Shown here: positions 2,000-19,686 of the stretch, one piece after another
Position numbering within the stretch: position 1 is the first letter of the stretch
How the letters are laid out: each line of letters starts with the position of its first letter
Source: a virus
Strand: one strand, 5' to 3'
IMG/VR virus record: IMGVR_UViG_3300024273_000114
Coordinates: 1 to 21,789 of that record
Length of the DNA stretch: 21,789 bases
Notes under the pieces: model-generated
Database searches by the model: none
Seen by the model: the letters and a program-made list of their open reading frames with translations, nothing else
What the model was told of the DNA's origin: nothing
Position numbers and translations under genes: made by a program

Positions 2000-2446
2000 T
2001 TATGTGTTGAGGTGAACTCTGATAGAGGAACGTGCTGTGCCGTCAAGCATCTTGTTTACAACAGCGACAGCGTCCTTTGCGGTGTGTACTTCGTCGCCGA
2101 CTTTGGCGGTTATAAACTGGCTGCTCCATGTGCTGTGACGTATCACAAAAGCGCCGACCTTGTAAGGGTTGTAAGTGAGAGCATGAGAACTGCCGATTCG
2201 GAACAGCTCATCGGTCAGCGTTCCAATCATGTAGGCATGGACATTCTTGCGCTGCTCCTTAATGACACGTTGGCGGCCAGCCTCGCTGATCTTAAAGGTG
2301 ACGTCGGATAGCTTGACCATGTCAGCATGAGCCACAACTAGGCCCTTCTGTTGGATGCTGAAGCATTTGCGGTGGAGGTTCCAATACACCTTTACGGGTT
2401 TGGCTATGTCGAGTGGCGCTTTAGTTCGTCGTAATGGTAATTTCAT
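2000..2446 (-). CDS. Unidentified basic protein (148 aa)
   Basis: The N-terminus is basic (MKLPLRRTKAP). It is followed by VYWNLHRKCFSIQ (20-32), GLVVAHADMV (35-44) and a helical segment EAGRQRVIKEQRKNVHAYMIG. I have the impression that the YWNLHRKCFS/VVAHAD signature recurs in proteins of unknown function in other phages, but cannot name a family. A longer frame starts inside the hammerhead and repeat region at 2539. ATG 2446 lies just after an A/C-rich leader (CAACCAACCCAAAACCACC) and is preferred. Its mRNA would begin with the downstream product of the 2520-2569 ribozyme, followed by repeat B copy 2. Confidence 0.7.
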   Translation of the reverse strand: MKLPLRRTKAPLDIAKPVKVYWNLHRKCFSIQQKGLVVAHADMVKLSDVTFKISEAGRQRVIKEQRKNVHAYMIGTLTDELFRIGSSHALTYNPYKVGAFVIRHSTWSSQFITAKVGDEVHTAKDAVAVVNKMLDGTARSSIRVHLNT

Positions 2447-2519: not shown

Positions 2520-2569
2520 GGTCTCGTCAGTGACAGCATAACTGCCAGACGCCTTGCAGCGTTTCGACC
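2520..2569 (-). ncRNA. Type II hammerhead ribozyme, copy 2
   Basis: On the minus strand: stem II 3' arm GGTC (2569-2566), conserved GAAA (2565-2562), stem III CGC/GCG plus a closing U-G pair with a GCAA tetraloop (2561-2550), U16.1 and C17 (2549-2548), stem I TGGCAG (2547-2542) pairing with CTGTCA (2536-2531), core CTGACGA (2530-2524), stem II 5' arm GACC (2523-2520). Every invariant hammerhead core position is present. Cleavage is expected between 2548 and 2547. Because stem II is the open helix this is the type II permutation, known from bacterial and phage DNA. The element begins 12 nt after the stop codon of the 245-aa gene. Confidence 0.93.
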
Positions 2570-2581
2570 TGTAGGTAATGC

Positions 2582-3319
2582 TTAGCCGATCTTGATTGTG
2601 AATCCGCTGTTGTCGCTTCGTGCATCACCTTTAGCTCGGAGGCCGACAAACACACCGTCTTTATCGAGGAACCGCAGGTCTGTCTTGTCACCGTCAACAA
2701 CTTCGTGGTCACCGTAGGTCTCTGGCAACTCATCGGCTTTGGCTGTCGAGAATACGGCAGCTACGTTGCCTCCTGATGCCAGCACTGCAGCTACGGCTTC
2801 GTCATTACACTCGGACTTACTGAATGTAAGGTGGTAGTTGGCTGGCATTTTACCTTCGGCATATGCAATAGCTCGGCTCGGCACTTTAGTGTAGTCGTAA
2901 AACGCTACAGATGGGAACCGCTCCATCAAAGTGACGCCAAGCTCACCCTTTAGTCTCTCCCACGGCAGGTCACTTGTGCCGTTTAACCGTACCGCTGGTA
3001 TCATGCCCACCTTGGCTGCTTTGGTCACGATCTTTTGGATGTCGACTGCCAGCTGTTCAACGAACCCTTTAGGGTCGGCGAGGAATTTGTGGGTCTTGGC
3101 TATTCTAGCCTTCACTACCGATTGCATCTTGCCTCGGCCAGCTGAGTACAAGCATACTGCTTTGCAGCCCTCGGATGCCATTGGGCAGAGGTTGACTTTG
3201 TCACTGGCCTCGTTGGCTGGAGCAAGGTACAGAATACCTGTAAGGTAACCAGCTGAGTCACCTTTGCGGGTTTTGGCGTCGGCATTTACCGATAGGAGTG
3301 TTGTGTTGACTGTGATCAT
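2582..3319 (-). CDS. Cysteine-motif phage protein resembling the 'gene product 88' family (245 aa)
   Basis: The protein has a cysteine cluster CPMASEGCKAVC (45-56; C-x6-C-x3-C), then AGRGKM (60-65), an ARIAKTHKFLADPKGFV segment (71-87), VRLNGTSDLPWE (110-121), DYTKVPSR (142-149) and LTFSKSECND with a fourth cysteine (171). I associate this arrangement with a widespread family of phage proteins of unknown function, labelled gene product 88 in mycobacteriophage annotation; that label is from memory. The clustered cysteines suggest a bound metal or iron-sulfur cluster, which is inference. ATG 3319 follows repeat B copy 1 and a short CGACCAAAAATT leader. The gene lies between repeat B copy 1 and hammerhead 2, so its transcript would be trimmed 3' of the stop codon. 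Confidence 0.75.
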   Translation of the reverse strand: MITVNTTLLSVNADAKTRKGDSAGYLTGILYLAPANEASDKVNLCPMASEGCKAVCLYSAGRGKMQSVVKARIAKTHKFLADPKGFVEQLAVDIQKIVTKAAKVGMIPAVRLNGTSDLPWERLKGELGVTLMERFPSVAFYDYTKVPSRAIAYAEGKMPANYHLTFSKSECNDEAVAAVLASGGNVAAVFSTAKADELPETYGDHEVVDGDKTDLRFLDKDGVFVGLRAKGDARSDNSGFTIKIG

Positions 3320-3344
3320 AATTTTTGGTCGGCGAGAAGTGCCA

Positions 3345-3376
3345 CTTTACTTTTGTCTTGATTGTACTAGGCAGAC
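3345..3376 (-). repeat. Intergenic repeat B, copy 1
   Basis: This 32 nt copy has a single difference (CTGCC instead of CTGCG) from copy 3. It lies 8 nt after the stop of the 68-aa gene and 25 nt before the start of the 245-aa gene. It contains TACAAT, which resembles a -10 box, but no -35 box is visible at a suitable distance in any copy. Confidence 0.8.
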
Positions 3377-3384
3377 AGCGTGGG

Positions 3385-3591
3385 TTAGTACGTTTCGCCT
3401 ATTGCTACGACGAGAGTACCTTTCAGGTAACGGCAGTCGCTTATGTCCTCTTGGTTTTGGCATTCATATTTACCTTCGGTACGGTCATAGTTTTCCCTTG
3501 TCAGCATCGGGCCGAAAGGTTGGCCATTACGTAGTCGGCGGAAGAACTCACCGTTTGGAAGCTTGGATAGTGTGGATGTGGTGTATGTCAT
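3385..3591 (-). CDS. Conserved-looking small phage protein (68 aa)
   Basis: The sequence runs TTSTLSKLPNGEFFRRL (4-20), then RENYDRTEGKYECQNQEDIS (32-51), and ends LKGTLVVAIGETY. The KLPNGEFFKR...YDR...KY..DDI pattern is one I associate with small uncharacterised phage proteins, but no function is known to me. ATG 3591 is preceded by CACACATCATCACAACT, an A/C-rich leader without a Shine-Dalgarno sequence. The gene is the first one downstream of hammerhead 1 and would be the 5' gene of the cleaved RNA. Confidence 0.7.
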   Translation of the reverse strand: MTYTTSTLSKLPNGEFFRRLRNGQPFGPMLTRENYDRTEGKYECQNQEDISDCRYLKGTLVVAIGETY

Positions 3592-3624
3592 AGTTGTGAT
3601 GATGTGTGGTTTATGTGTGCTGAT

Positions 3625-3676
3625 GGTCTCATCAGTGACGTAGTAAACGCCAGACGGCTTTCACACCGTTTCGACC
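3625..3676 (-). ncRNA. Type II hammerhead ribozyme, copy 1
   Basis: On the minus strand: stem II 3' arm GGTC (3676-3673), GAAA (3672-3669), stem III CGG (3668-3666) with CCG (3657-3655) and a possible U-G closing pair, U16.1 and C17 (3654-3653), stem I TGGCG (3652-3648) with CGTCA (3640-3636), core CTGATGA (3635-3629), stem II 5' arm GACC (3628-3625). All invariant core bases are present and cleavage is expected between 3653 and 3652. Compared with copy 2, stem III has swapped a C-G/G-C pair and stem I differs in length while keeping pairing. It begins 12 nt after the stop of the 107-aa gene. Confidence 0.93.
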
Positions 3677-3688
3677 TTTAGCGCTTCG

Positions 3689-4012
3689 TTACCAAATGCA
3701 GGCCTCGGCCTCCCTGAGTTGCTCGGCCTTGACCTCCATGAATTGCTTTACATCTTCGATGGTGTCGAACCGTTCCAGTATGTCATTCTCGTCCATGTCT
3801 TCGTTGATGTTGATGCCTACTTCGTAGTCCTTCATGGCAATGGCCCTGACCTCGGCGACAAAGTCCATTTTACTACGTATTAGGGCCTCTTGTGCCCTCA
3901 ATTCGCAGATGGTATCGCTGAAAATAGAACGTAGTTCAGTGTCGCCACAGGTTTTGCCTAGGATGGAACGTAGTTGCTTACGGATGTCGTTGAGTGTGTT
4001 TCGTAGTGTCAT
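3689..4012 (-). CDS. Unidentified helical acidic protein (107 aa)
   Basis: I do not recognise this protein. It begins MTLRNTLNDIRKQLRSILGKTCGD and appears almost entirely helical, with an acidic second half (INEDMDENDILERFDTIEDVKQFMEVKAEQLREAEA) that could form a coiled coil. A longer frame begins at TTG 4066, but its extra residues (ASNIHIIIHIIHT) are only the CATCATCCAC repeat translated, so an internal start is used. ATG 4012 is chosen; ATG 4024 would add four residues. It follows the 119-aa gene by 43 nt of repetitive leader and is followed after 12 nt by hammerhead 1. Confidence 0.6.
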   Translation of the reverse strand: MTLRNTLNDIRKQLRSILGKTCGDTELRSIFSDTICELRAQEALIRSKMDFVAEVRAIAMKDYEVGININEDMDENDILERFDTIEDVKQFMEVKAEQLREAEACIW

Positions 4013-4025
4013 AGTGTGTGTCATA

Positions 4026-4055
4026 GTGTGGATGATGTGGATGATGATGTGGATG
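4026..4055 (-). repeat. CCACATCATC-type simple repeat in a translation leader
   Basis: On the minus strand the leader of the 107-aa gene is made of CATCCACATCATC units with hardly any G. A similar tract is found at 4385-4440. The composition keeps the leader unstructured and there is no Shine-Dalgarno sequence. CA-rich tracts near start codons are known to raise translation in E. coli; that they do so here is inference. Confidence 0.6.
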
Positions 4056-4415
4056 TTACTCGCCAACTACGTTTTCAGCGTAGGTAACGTCGAACTGGCA
4101 ATCGGAGTGATGAGCTGCGAAGATGACTGCGCTGTTGAGCTTTTGGAAGAGAGCAATTAGATCGTCCCTCTGTCCTTCGGACTGCTCGCTGTACTTACGC
4201 ATTTTCCAGTCGATCGTGACACGGTCACCATCTTCGATGTCCAGCCGAAGCCAGCCTTCGTAATGATCGGCATCGCCAAAGGCTAGCATCATAGATGAGC
4301 CGCCAAGGTCGCCTTCTGTGATGTAATCGCAGTAAGCTTCTAGTTGGATGTCGAGGATCGCTTTGAACGCATCGAACGGAGTTAGTGTGGATGATGTGGA
4401 TGGTGTGGATGTCAT
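4056..4415 (-). CDS. Unidentified acidic early protein (119 aa)
   Basis: I do not recognise this protein. The first residues (MTSTPSTSSTLTP) are a Ser/Thr-rich tail encoded by the CCACATCATCC repeat. The rest (FDAFKAILDIQLEAYCDYITEGDLGG... GWLRLDIEDGDRVTIDWKMRKY... LIALFQKLNSAVIFAAHHSDCQFDVTY) looks like a small acidic alpha/beta domain. The open frame extends to 4598 through the promoter-like element, so I take ATG 4415, which lies about 70 nt downstream of the likely transcription start. It appears to be the first gene of the early operon after the non-coding region, a position where T7-like phages place host-takeover genes; a function cannot be assigned. Confidence 0.6.
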   Translation of the reverse strand: MTSTPSTSSTLTPFDAFKAILDIQLEAYCDYITEGDLGGSSMMLAFGDADHYEGWLRLDIEDGDRVTIDWKMRKYSEQSEGQRDDLIALFQKLNSAVIFAAHHSDCQFDVTYAENVVGE

Positions 4416-4440
4416 AATGTATGGATGATGTGGATGATGT
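4385..4440 (-). repeat. CCACATCATC-type simple repeat spanning a start codon
   Basis: This tract of ATCCAC/ATCATCC units lies on both sides of ATG 4415, forming both the end of the leader and the first codons of the 119-aa protein. It matches the tract at 4026-4055. G is nearly absent from the mRNA sense. Confidence 0.6.
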
Positions 4441-4491
4441 GCCGTGATTGGCGGTGTGTTTGAGAGGTGAAAAGAACGATGTTGCCCCATC

Positions 4492-15950: not shown

Positions 15951-16895
15951 TTAATTGTCTCCTTCTGTTAATTCATTAAAGTTATCTACCGTTAAAATAT
16001 CCAGTAATTTATCGGTATCTGTTTCGTCTGTTCTATGAACCGTCATCCACACTGTCTCTGAGTGTGTATACAAAGCGCGTTGTGTTCCTGCTTCGGTGAT
16101 ATTACTGTAAGGTGCTTTAATACGTTGTAGCCCGTTCTCAGTAATTACTGAGACATCTCCCGACATAATAAAGTAAGGATGCTTTTGTTTGTGTATCTTA
16201 CTAATAATAATCTGACCAGCAGGCATAGTAATTTTACGTACATACATACCATCACCAAAAGTATGTTCTAATGGATTAAGCGTGTCTATTGTGGCTCTAT
16301 CTTCGGTTGCGTTATTGCTGCTTTTTATTTCATCAGTAAACTTAGAAATCTTTTCTCTAAATTCTTGTAGAGGCATAGGCTGAGCAAATACATCAAGAAT
16401 GTTCTCCTCTTCTTCTTCTTCTTCAGCTTCGATAACAAACTCAAGAAACACTTCTCCACCAATTTCTACTTTCTTTGTGAAGTCAGCGCCCAGCCAAGAC
16501 AGCCAACGAATGGATGTCTCATAGCTCGCTAAGACAAAGTTGGTTACTTTACCGTACTTTTTAATAAGAGGCTGTAACCATTCTTTAGATCCCTTAGCGA
16601 ACGCATACCAATTATCTTTAATACCGTCACTGCCCAGCAGCCAAATATAGCTAGTATCCCCTACACGTCCAACACCTAGCATTGCAAAGGGAACACCCTC
16701 AGCGTCTAGGCAGGTAACACACAGATCGTCGGCAGCCATAGCTTCTGTAAGAGCTGCTTTTGATGAGGGGTATCCAAAGGCTTTCGCTTCTGTAATATCT
16801 TCTTTCCTCAATAGGGGTGCAAGCTTCTCAGCGTGAGCTAATGTAGCTACGCAGACTGATTGACCACTGGCGTACTTTTTAAGTATTTTATCCAT
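15951..16895 (-). CDS. gp13-like virion protein with C-terminal cupin-like domain (314 aa)
   Basis: The first half (1-156) resembles T7 gp13-type internal virion proteins with an acetyltransferase-like fold (ADDLCVTCLDAEGVPFAMLGVGRVGDTSYIWLLGSDGI... YETSIRWLSWLGADF). An acidic run of seven glutamates follows (158-164). The second half (about 209-299) resembles a cupin: EHTFGDGMYVRKITMPAGQIIISKIHKQKHPYFIMSGDVSVI... HSETVWMTVHRTDETDTDKL, with histidines that could bind a metal. An open frame from TTG 16973 would add 26 hydrophobic residues inside the gp12-like gene. ATG 16895 gives the ordinary 8 nt overlap (ATGGATAA) with the gp12-like stop, so I use it. Confidence 0.82.
   Translation of the reverse strand: MDKILKKYASGQSVCVATLAHAEKLAPLLRKEDITEAKAFGYPSSKAALTEAMAADDLCVTCLDAEGVPFAMLGVGRVGDTSYIWLLGSDGIKDNWYAFAKGSKEWLQPLIKKYGKVTNFVLASYETSIRWLSWLGADFTKKVEIGGEVFLEFVIEAEEEEEEENILDVFAQPMPLQEFREKISKFTDEIKSSNNATEDRATIDTLNPLEHTFGDGMYVRKITMPAGQIIISKIHKQKHPYFIMSGDVSVITENGLQRIKAPYSNITEAGTQRALYTHSETVWMTVHRTDETDTDKLLDILTVDNFNELTEGDN
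15958..15964 (-). promoter_or_regulatory. Shine-Dalgarno site of the gp14-like gene
   Basis: AAGGAGA lies 9 nt before ATG 15948, inside the last codons of the gp13-like gene. It is the only strong Shine-Dalgarno sequence I see in the window, and it supports 15948 as the start. Confidence 0.8.
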
Positions 16896-19686
16896 ATCGA
16901 CTAGAACGGGGTTTAACAAAGGATTCAAACTCAGCGCTATTAAACTTACAATCAAAAGGGTTAAGACTTTCAATAGTCATTTCAGTATTTTTAGCTTTAC
17001 CGTGAACAGGAAACCTAAAGAATCCATCTCCAAATTTAACTCCGCTAATATCAATGTTATTAGGTTGATCCTCTGCGCGATACGAGGAAACTACTGCGTT
17101 TCTTTCGTCGGTCTCTATTTTAACATCAAATGAATTAGTATTATCGTAGAATACAGCCCCATTACGGACAATAAGGGAAGAGGCAGCTGACGGTGAGGAA
17201 CTCTTACCAGCCGCCGCTTTGAATAACTGCGTACTAAACTTGTACTTCATGTTATACAATCTACCGAAATAACCATATACAGGCGAACTAGGCGTAGAAC
17301 CTGTTCCAAAGAAGCCACTATAAGCGCTATAGGTTACAGCTTGTACTTGCCCTGTTGAGGTCACAAATTTGTAATCCGCGATATCGGCAGCATCAATATC
17401 ATAAGGAAGATTGGCTGAGTTAGAAGTCCATGTTGATCCGTTATACCACTCCAATCTATTGTTAGTGTTTCTTCTCATTTCAATACGATTATCAAGAAGA
17501 ACCTGTAAATTTTCAAAATCAGTGTCAGTGTTAGACAGATAAGGGTCAGCCGATGTCTGCCCCGAATTAATACTCATAGTCAATAACAGTGTCTGAGAGT
17601 CTCTTACAACTACCATAACAAGTTGCGACTCAAGGAACTCAATACCTCTTATTTCACCATCTACTGTAAACTTAGACCAAGAGCTCAGTGCTTTTGTGTT
17701 ATTCTCCCAGAAGTATTTATAGAAATAAATAGCATTACGTTCGTTTTGACTGACAACAGCATAAGCATTCTCTGCTGTAGTACCTGCTGTGTACACAAGT
17801 TCTCTAGGAATGTATGCAGGAACATGCTCAGTAATTTCTGCTGAGTCATACGTGTCGGTGTTAGCGTTGACCGTATACTCACGAATACCTGTGTAAGATC
17901 CACGACTAAAAGGAAAGTAAACGTAAGAACCTAACACAAGGGGAGTATCGTGCGTGTCAAAACTAAAGTTAGTAACGGGGCTTACAGATACTGTTTGAGG
18001 TGTGAGTAGATCCCCACCCTTCATAACAAACTGAACGTTGTCCCCAAAGATCAATAGATTCTCTTGGAAGCCTACAGCAGCTGTGAGCTTTGTAACACGG
18101 GTGCTTGATACGTTTACGTCAATAGGAGCGGAATCTAATAAAGAAGACACAGTTTTTCGATAAAAATTAAAAAACTTACCAGCTTCAGAAAAGATTACCG
18201 AGCCATCCGTTAAGAAACCTAATCGATTTTTAAAGAAGGTTATGTTATTAATCGTCGTTCCTACAAAAGAAGGCGGGGGGTTACTATCTAAGTCTCCTGC
18301 TTCCCTTACTTCTGTAACAACCTCTTCTAGAGAGAAAGCATTTAGCCCTGTATTTACAAACCTCATAGGCATAGTAGAATTATCAAGTCCAACAGGAACG
18401 TTAGGCCCTACCGTTTCCGTCCAAGTTCCGTTTCCAAGGGTTGATCCATCCTTAGTGGAAAATTCTACATAATAATCATCTTGATCAATATCAACATCTC
18501 CTACTACTTTAACTTTAAAACCATCAGGAGCTATTAAAGGAAGTGCAGAAATACTGTCTACGGCTTTATAAGCGGAAGTCATCCCGCTACCTCCAAGAGG
18601 ATCATAAGTTCTAATGTTAAAATCTTCTAAATTAGCGCTTAGGGCTGACTTCCATTTAAAACGGATAACATGTCCAACATGGGTAGTATCAAAGTTAGCT
18701 GCTGGTTTACTGGTCGAATCCTTACTAAGGCTGCCACCATACCCGTCTGCACCAGCCACGGTTAAGGAAGTAGCGTTGGCAAGGTTGACTATATTCCGAG
18801 CAATTACATTAGTATCTGCATTTTCCCCTCCTTGAGTAGCTGCTCCAGTCTTCGCAACCATTTTAGAATAGAATGATTCATCTATCGGAGTTATACCTGC
18901 TTTATATACGGTCACATCTTTACGTCCAGTGCCTCCTGTTATTGCTGACATCGGCCAAGTGACATGCCGCAATGTATTGGCAACGGCTACGATTCGACCC
19001 TCAGAGTCAAATGTAGGGACGAGTCCTAAATCCTGTTCTTGTCCCCCCTTGTAAGACCATGATTGAATACCATAACCACTAGCAAGAATCTGAACATAGT
19101 CAATATAACCACCGCGTCCGTCAGTGTAAAGCTGCCAATATTTAATTACGCTTGGTTCATTACTACGTCCTATTTCTATTTCATATCTTTTTGCATAGTC
19201 GCCTTGATTGATTGATACAATAGCCTCGCGCTCTAGGGGTGGTGTGAGAGCGGTATCTTCTTTAACTTCAACGGTAGAGTTTAATAAAAAAGTGTTATCA
19301 GCTACCGTAAGTGCTTTTATATCACGATCAGGGGAAGCTGAGTTTAGATAATGCCCAGCAGGAATATTCGCAAATGCAGCTTCATTAATAGTACATTGGA
19401 CTCCTGTAATAGTATTAAAGGCAAAAAGTTTATTGACCGCTTTATCTAAAACTAGTACATACTTCTCCTCATCATCTCGATTAATAAAATGAACAAAACT
19501 CTTATCGCTAATGGCCGACTCAAACATACGGACAACGTGTTTTGTATTAGGTCTCTTTTTTAACCCGTCCACAACAGAGCTTAAAGCATTTAACTGCTCG
19601 TCGCATTGCCCAGCAAATCGAACACTGTCAGGCTGTTGGGAAACACCCTGAATCATGTTGGTAACAGAAGTATTAATTAAAGGCAT
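16888..19686 (-). CDS. Tail tubular protein B / nozzle, gp12-like (932 aa)
   Basis: The N-terminus MPLINTSVTNMIQGVSQQPDSVRFAGQCDEQLNALSSVVDGLKKRPNTKHV has the G-I/V-S-Q-Q-P-D and GL-x-KRP motifs of T7 gp12-type nozzle proteins. Further matches to the family are FVGTTINNITFFKNRLGFLTDGSVIFSEAGKFFNFY and ENLLIFGDNVQFVM in the middle. It forms the tail nozzle below the gp11-like ring. It is longer than T7 gp12 (794 aa); the extra length seems to lie in Gly/Ser/Thr-rich beta regions. ATG 19686 is 3 nt after the gp11-like stop, with an A/T-rich leader and no Shine-Dalgarno sequence. Confidence 0.96.
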   Translation of the reverse strand: MPLINTSVTNMIQGVSQQPDSVRFAGQCDEQLNALSSVVDGLKKRPNTKHVVRMFESAISDKSFVHFINRDDEEKYVLVLDKAVNKLFAFNTITGVQCTINEAAFANIPAGHYLNSASPDRDIKALTVADNTFLLNSTVEVKEDTALTPPLEREAIVSINQGDYAKRYEIEIGRSNEPSVIKYWQLYTDGRGGYIDYVQILASGYGIQSWSYKGGQEQDLGLVPTFDSEGRIVAVANTLRHVTWPMSAITGGTGRKDVTVYKAGITPIDESFYSKMVAKTGAATQGGENADTNVIARNIVNLANATSLTVAGADGYGGSLSKDSTSKPAANFDTTHVGHVIRFKWKSALSANLEDFNIRTYDPLGGSGMTSAYKAVDSISALPLIAPDGFKVKVVGDVDIDQDDYYVEFSTKDGSTLGNGTWTETVGPNVPVGLDNSTMPMRFVNTGLNAFSLEEVVTEVREAGDLDSNPPPSFVGTTINNITFFKNRLGFLTDGSVIFSEAGKFFNFYRKTVSSLLDSAPIDVNVSSTRVTKLTAAVGFQENLLIFGDNVQFVMKGGDLLTPQTVSVSPVTNFSFDTHDTPLVLGSYVYFPFSRGSYTGIREYTVNANTDTYDSAEITEHVPAYIPRELVYTAGTTAENAYAVVSQNERNAIYFYKYFWENNTKALSSWSKFTVDGEIRGIEFLESQLVMVVVRDSQTLLLTMSINSGQTSADPYLSNTDTDFENLQVLLDNRIEMRRNTNNRLEWYNGSTWTSNSANLPYDIDAADIADYKFVTSTGQVQAVTYSAYSGFFGTGSTPSSPVYGYFGRLYNMKYKFSTQLFKAAAGKSSSPSAASSLIVRNGAVFYDNTNSFDVKIETDERNAVVSSYRAEDQPNNIDISGVKFGDGFFRFPVHGKAKNTEMTIESLNPFDCKFNSAEFESFVKPRSSRYG

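Follow-up and report, generated by a model that had tools for sequence, protein, structure and literature searches.

The early region of a T7-like phage carries two type II hammerhead ribozymes (HHRs), and the tail that follows one of them belongs to a phage subtype in which the tail covaries with the catalytic core. We consider it likely, at a probability of roughly 65%, that both ribozymes cut the early polycistronic mRNA at gene junctions and that the tail of copy 1 acts after cleavage, as a latch.

Anatomy and identity of the two hammerheads

The window, meaning the whole stretch of DNA analyzed, is a 21.8-kb IMG/VR virus contig whose genes lie on the minus strand. A preliminary description made from the letters alone had placed type II HHRs at 3676-3625 (copy 1) and 2569-2520 (copy 2); all motif elements of both copies are present there on the minus strand, and C17 falls at 3653 and 2548, as it had stated.

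3625-3676, minus strand: copy 1, type II HHR (exact core, structural search, independent covariance model)
3676-3673 with 3628-3625, minus strand: copy 1 stem II
3672-3669 and 3668-3655, minus strand: copy 1 GAAA and stem III hairpin
3654 and 3653, minus strand: copy 1 U16.1 and C17, predicted cut 3653/3652
3652-3636 and 3635-3629, minus strand: copy 1 stem I hairpin and CTGATGA
3677, minus strand: unpaired A just 5′ of copy 1 stem II
2520-2569, minus strand: copy 2, type II HHR (exact core, structural search, independent covariance model)
2569-2566 with 2523-2520, minus strand: copy 2 stem II
2565-2562 and 2561-2550, minus strand: copy 2 GAAA and stem III hairpin
2549 and 2548, minus strand: copy 2 U16.1 and C17, predicted cut 2548/2547
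2547-2531 and 2530-2524, minus strand: copy 2 stem I hairpin and CTGACGA
2570, minus strand: A 5′ of copy 2 stem II; the tail of this copy is ACACA, with no latch

Copy 1 reads GGTC, GAAA, CGGTGTGAAAGCCG, TC, TGGCGTTTACTACGTCA, CTGATGA, and GACC (3676-3625), and copy 2 reads GGTC, GAAA, CGCTGCAAGGCG, TC, TGGCAGTTATGCTGTCA, CTGACGA, and GACC (2569-2520). The invariant core (CUGANGA and GAAA, with UH at the cleavage site) is exact in both copies, and each has three helices, with I and III looped and II closing from outside. Both have a 4-bp stem II and a 6-bp stem I with a 5-nt loop. As had been noted, the copies differ in stem III, stem I, the loops, and N7 with pairing preserved. Pairing between loop I and the first 8 nt of the tail amounts to at most 2 to 3 contiguous pairs in either copy, so neither shows the loop I-tail pseudoknot of the published type II consensus. 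Self-cleavage after H17 would be expected to give 5′-OH and 2′,3′-cyclic phosphate ends.

A joint pattern of these elements matches exactly these two sites in the window and none in 100 dinucleotide shuffles, and a structural type II search likewise finds only these two HHRs in the window. The search with the Rfam Hammerhead_II model that the preliminary description had proposed gave a divided outcome: neither copy matches at the gathering score of 37 bits, but on short stretches the model is the top match, in the correct register, for copy 1 (17.6 bits; E = 0.14 over 4,227 families) and copy 2 (16.3 bits; E = 0.27). The low scores probably arise because RF02276, to judge from its printed consensus, models a 2-bp stem II and a conserved tail rather than a 4-bp stem II. 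Taken literally, a miss at the gathering score is the refuting outcome that the preliminary description had named, but it reflects a narrow Rfam model, and that score is a database threshold, not a defining property of a ribozyme. Because the model scores this form so far below threshold, phage hammerheads are probably undercounted.

An independent covariance model was built from 74 phage HHRs in whose loci no similarity to proteins of the window was detected. It scores copy 2 at 62.8 bits (E = 9.6e-17) and copy 1 at 60.8 bits (E = 3.9e-16), with no other match in the window up to E = 10. The stems of these 74 HHRs are 99.8% paired, a figure to be read in light of the fact that the model rows came from a search requiring stems; compensatory changes occur in all three stems, and 328 cells show a change in both partners, as against 92 in shuffles. 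Together, the model and the compensatory changes support the type II assignment.

Early-gene setting, relatives, and placement across phages

From right to left, the window encodes gp11-/gp12-like tail proteins, internal virion proteins, TerS, and TerL, followed by a small-gene block holding GP88 (PF17338), a homologue of L5 gp82, DUF932, and a lysozyme-like gene. These structural and terminase proteins bear out the description of the phage as T7-like; T7-type TerL, tail tubes, and internal virion proteins, as expected of Autographiviridae, are present in the window. The contig ends before the point where a gene for the phage's own single-subunit RNA polymerase would lie; 7 of 12 related contigs encode a T7-type RNA polymerase, which also supports the T7-like description. 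Two further frames are worth recording: a destabilase (i-type lysozyme)-like protein is encoded at 31-423 among the early genes (PF05497; 7.8e-8), and frame 15951-16973 fuses a T7 internal-virion-like domain (phrog_308; aa 43 to 183) to a short tail fiber/adhesin-like domain (phrog_12032; aa 195 to 338).

3689-4066, minus strand: early gene upstream of copy 1, start codon uncertain, stop 12 nt before stem II
3385-3591, minus strand: early gene of 68 aa that follows copy 1, its start lying 33 nt beyond stem II
2582-3319, minus strand: GP88-family gene (PF17338; 2.4e-48), 245 aa, between both HHRs, stop 12 nt before copy 2
2000-2446, minus strand: Mycobacteriophage L5 gp82-family gene (PF25735; 2.5e-31), downstream of copy 2
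423-480, 1463-1510, 2446-2480, 3591-3620, 4036-4060, and 4415-4450, minus strand: C/A-rich leaders

The gene at 3689-4066 has no convincing family match. The early-gene leaders are C/A-rich, with, for example, CACATCCACATCATCC repeats, and carry no clear Shine-Dalgarno sequence. A 34-nt repeat, TAGTCTGCGTAGTACAATCAAGACAAAAGTAAAG, lies on the minus strand at 1757-1791, 2472-2508, and 3344-3378, within or close to three early-gene leaders; it is often followed by a small GGC..GCC hairpin, recurs in the early regions of relatives L130, L132, and L200 to L207, and is not clearly a promoter.

The proposal that both HHRs sit in an early operon is supported by a relative (L319, also G010) with the one-strand order TerL, HHR (3291), GP88 (3693), HHR (4430), DUF932 (5727), and RNA polymerase (10355). 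In a second relative (G002; 39.9 kb), both HHRs are upstream of the RNA polymerase gene and at most 1.5 kb from the contig end. The position of the block between TerL and the polymerase in relatives, together with the latter layout, indicates that these are early genes. An HHR directly follows GP88 in all of L200 to L208, further HHRs in relatives precede the GP88 block or DUF932, and the two near-complete HHR-bearing relatives have no HHR outside the early region. L199 and L260 both derive from a single contig, which ends just after GP88. One relative with 81% TerL identity (L323, also G005) lacks both the small-gene block and HHRs, so the function of the HHRs is dispensable.

Among the named T7-like or GP88-bearing phages checked, only Rhizobium phage vB_RleA_TRX32-1 gives a weak type II HHR candidate, at 39597-39660 of MW023914.1 (9598-9661 of our locus L339; 15.6 bits). 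LUZ100, HTVC309P, Lo5R7ANS, CRP-125, CRP-6, and two uncultured MedDCM genomes have no HHR by finder or model. RtcB ligates the type of ends that hammerheads produce; an annotated putative RtcB RNA ligase lies just upstream of the RNA polymerase gene in Mesorhizobium phage Lo5R7ANS (KM199771.1, 9397-10050), a genome in which the covariance model finds no HHR.

A pattern scan of viral contigs returned at least 120 stretches with a match. Applied to 3.0 Mb of phage loci, the structural search detected 416 HHRs, against none when the same DNA was reversed; the loci were picked for HHRs or kinship to the window, so these counts are not population frequencies. The fetched loci hold up to 11 copies each, and in 35 of the 35 multi-HHR loci of the first set all copies are on one strand. 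For 302 phage HHRs, an upstream stop codon lies within −15 to 60 nt in 87% (23% for random same-strand positions) and a start codon within 100 nt downstream in 75% (29% for random same-strand positions). Phage HHRs thus lie at gene junctions on the coding strand, a placement that supports self-processing of polycistronic mRNA.

A tail that covaries with the catalytic core

The preliminary description did not mention that the tail of copy 1, ATCAG at 3624-3620, is able to sequester the core.

3620-3635, minus strand: copy 1 latch hairpin, CTGATG (3635-3630) pairing with CATCAG (3625-3620), loop AGAC

As modeled, this hairpin would exclude both the catalytic core and stem II. We defined the latch subtype by RUCAG directly after a 4-bp stem II, with N′ complementary to N7. 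Copy 1 belongs to it (CTGAT GA GACC ATCAG), and copy 2 does not, given its ACACA tail. A RUCAG tail complementary to core CUGAY occurs in 122 unique phage HHRs including copy 1, nearly always with a 4-bp stem II; the latch version of the HHR is widespread in phages. Among 75 HHRs with a 4-bp stem II from a sample chosen without regard to the tail, 14 continue with NUCAG, versus ~0.3 by chance.

A further scan held C3-A6 and UCAG constant but let both N7 and its tail partner vary. Since C3-A6 is fixed by catalysis, and C3-A6 and UCAG by the search, covariation can show only at the N7 pair and, to some extent, at the G8 pair. Across 86 context clusters (122 unique sequences), N7:N′ is U:A in 61, C:G in 24, and U:G in 1, with no mismatch. 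N7 is also matched in seven further HHRs with just NUCA, and in nine HHRs whose A9 is immediately followed by GGUCAG an equivalent pairing is available in a different register (C:G in 6, U:G in 3). The partner of G8 is a pyrimidine in 81 of 81 latch HHRs versus 72 of 89 latchless ones, giving the hairpin CUGAYG-ANNN-YRUCAG, and a formal pairing count over 15 distinct latch forms is 100%, with slid controls at no more than 53%. An A just 5′ of stem II is present in all 81 latch HHRs and in most other HHRs. A latch scan of bacterial and archaeal genomes turned up six matches to the pattern; the finder accepts three HHRs, which lie on two contigs and are U:A in every case.

Loop I-tail complementarity depends on stem II length. 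At least 4 contiguous pairs are found in 52% of HHRs with a 2-bp stem II (permuted, 26%) and in 88% of those with a 3-bp stem II (permuted, 22%), so that 2- to 3-bp HHRs show, as judged from complementarity, the published loop I-tail pseudoknot. HHRs with a 4-bp stem II, mostly with a 6-bp stem I and a 5-nt loop, are at 11 to 12% (permuted, 7 to 11%). We also considered this pseudoknot as the reason for the tail and rejected it: the value for latch HHRs, 11%, equals the permuted background.

In folding models, the latch is in the minimum-free-energy fold of the 3′ product for 117 of 117 unique sequences. In uncut RNA the latched form is favored by ~1.6 kcal/mol on average, a value that leaves tertiary energy uncounted. 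Equilibrium folding of copy 1 prefixes gives stem II a probability of 0.87 at +1 nt, which drops to 0.00 by +5 nt, where the latch reaches 0.99. For copy 2, the folding model has downstream sequence including the 34-nt repeat compete with the ribozyme from +17 nt; this competition lacks covariation support.

We infer the following course of events for the infected cell. Each ribozyme would fold once stem II is transcribed and then cut, one ahead of the block that holds the 68-aa gene and GP88, the other directly downstream of GP88. With the cut after C17, the stem III hairpin would form the end of the upstream mRNA and the stem I hairpin the start of the downstream mRNA. In copy 1, AUCAG after stem II and the last stem II base would pair with core CUGAUG: once the four pairs of stem II that hold the upstream product have come apart, the core strand would snap into the latch hairpin. 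This could free the upstream product, block re-ligation, and leave the new 5′ end (5′-OH) capped by two adjacent hairpins. Against this, 4 of 18 consensus HHRs assayed in 2011 showed no activity (PMC3088659).

A post-cleavage lock is the best reading of the modeled latch, but the same hairpin could instead act before cleavage, as a timer or switch that permits cutting only from the moment stem II is finished until RUCAG emerges and locks transcripts still uncut at that point; the cleaved fraction would then be set by polymerase speed, pausing, ions, or a bound factor, and each transcript would have a limited time to cut. The loss of stem II between +1 and +5 nt in the copy 1 model fits this idea, as do the similar advantage of the latched form in C- and U-type latches (~1.6 kcal/mol in each) and the tracking of latch strength by stem II strength (rho = 0.64), although that correlation is partly built in because both structures share a stem II base. 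We saw no ligand site or regulator, and T7-type RNA polymerase genes are not enriched with the latch (2 of 50 latched contigs versus 1 of 90 latchless, the window's clade excluded). We judge the timer rather unlikely, favoring the post-cleavage lock since transcription finishes the ribozyme before it reaches the latch and since the latch is optional, as its absence from copy 2 and most 4-bp HHRs implies. The same contig counts weaken, but since the contigs are partial do not eliminate, a separate idea, that the latch senses a fast phage RNA polymerase. We give a rather low probability to the broader view of a distinct phage type II class with a co-evolving off-state, in which competition between tail and core would make a transcription-coupled timer or switch for mRNA processing.

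The HHRs might instead mainly mark the borders of exchangeable gene cassettes, as recombination landmarks or selfish passengers whose cleavage is tolerated and not useful. Their presence at gene junctions in unrelated phages would suit this, as would relative L200, whose GP88 is 100% identical to that of the window while its early-gene neighbors are 45 to 86% identical and loop I of its post-GP88 HHR differs; against it, covariation in stems and latch requires selection on RNA structure, and copies within multi-copy loci always share a strand. We regard it as unlikely. It is very improbable that the motifs are decayed, inactive hammerheads: both fall below the Rfam gathering score, but the core bases are all intact, as are the stems, with compensatory differences between copies, and both score 61 to 63 bits with the independent model. 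Hardly credible is a DNA-binding site in place of an RNA hairpin. CTGAY-N6-RTCAG is indeed a dyad in DNA, but one of its arms is fixed catalytic sequence, and nearly all such dyads in 3.3 Mb, mirror strand counted, fall inside HHRs.

Comparison with known systems

For the role of bacterial and phage hammerheads, a question standing since 2011, a tail that co-evolves with the sole free core base offers a precise test, by breaking and restoring a single base pair, of events after, or instead of, cutting. In bacteria and prophages, type II HHRs flank genes, and processing of mRNA to operon or gene length has been proposed (Perreault et al. 2011, PMC3088659); that paper gives the loop I-tail pseudoknot for a majority of type II HHRs, not for all. 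The core, permutation, cleavage site, A 5′ of stem II, and clustering with phage genes are the same in the window as in the published forms described there and in RF02276, whereas those typically combine a short stem II with the pseudoknot and the window form has a 4-bp stem II and no pseudoknot. The tail of copy 1 is complementary to the core; neither a latch nor N7 covariation appears in the available text of PMC3088659. The open-access literature searched yielded no latch hammerhead and no report of an HHR in Autographiviridae, which does not prove novelty; within that scope, the presence of HHRs among the early genes of T7-like phages is apparently new, as is a latch subtype whose tail covaries with N7.

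HHphage of haloviruses HF1/HF2 likewise precedes an early gene of a lytic virus, with a transcript 5′ end mapped at most 3 nt from the cut, but it belongs to an archaeal virus, has a variant core, and is present as a single copy (PMC3088659). The candidate of TRX32-1, a cultured, temperate, T7-like phage, directly follows the GP88 gene (38823-39572), just like copy 2, and differs in having the loop I-tail pseudoknot form and apparently an extra U after A9.

RNase III processes T7 early mRNA between genes, leaving hairpin ends. The window's HHRs would likewise cut an early polycistronic mRNA between genes and leave hairpin ends; unlike the T7 sites, they would do so by RNA catalysis, with no host enzyme, and the ends expected are 5′-OH and 2′,3′-cyclic phosphate.
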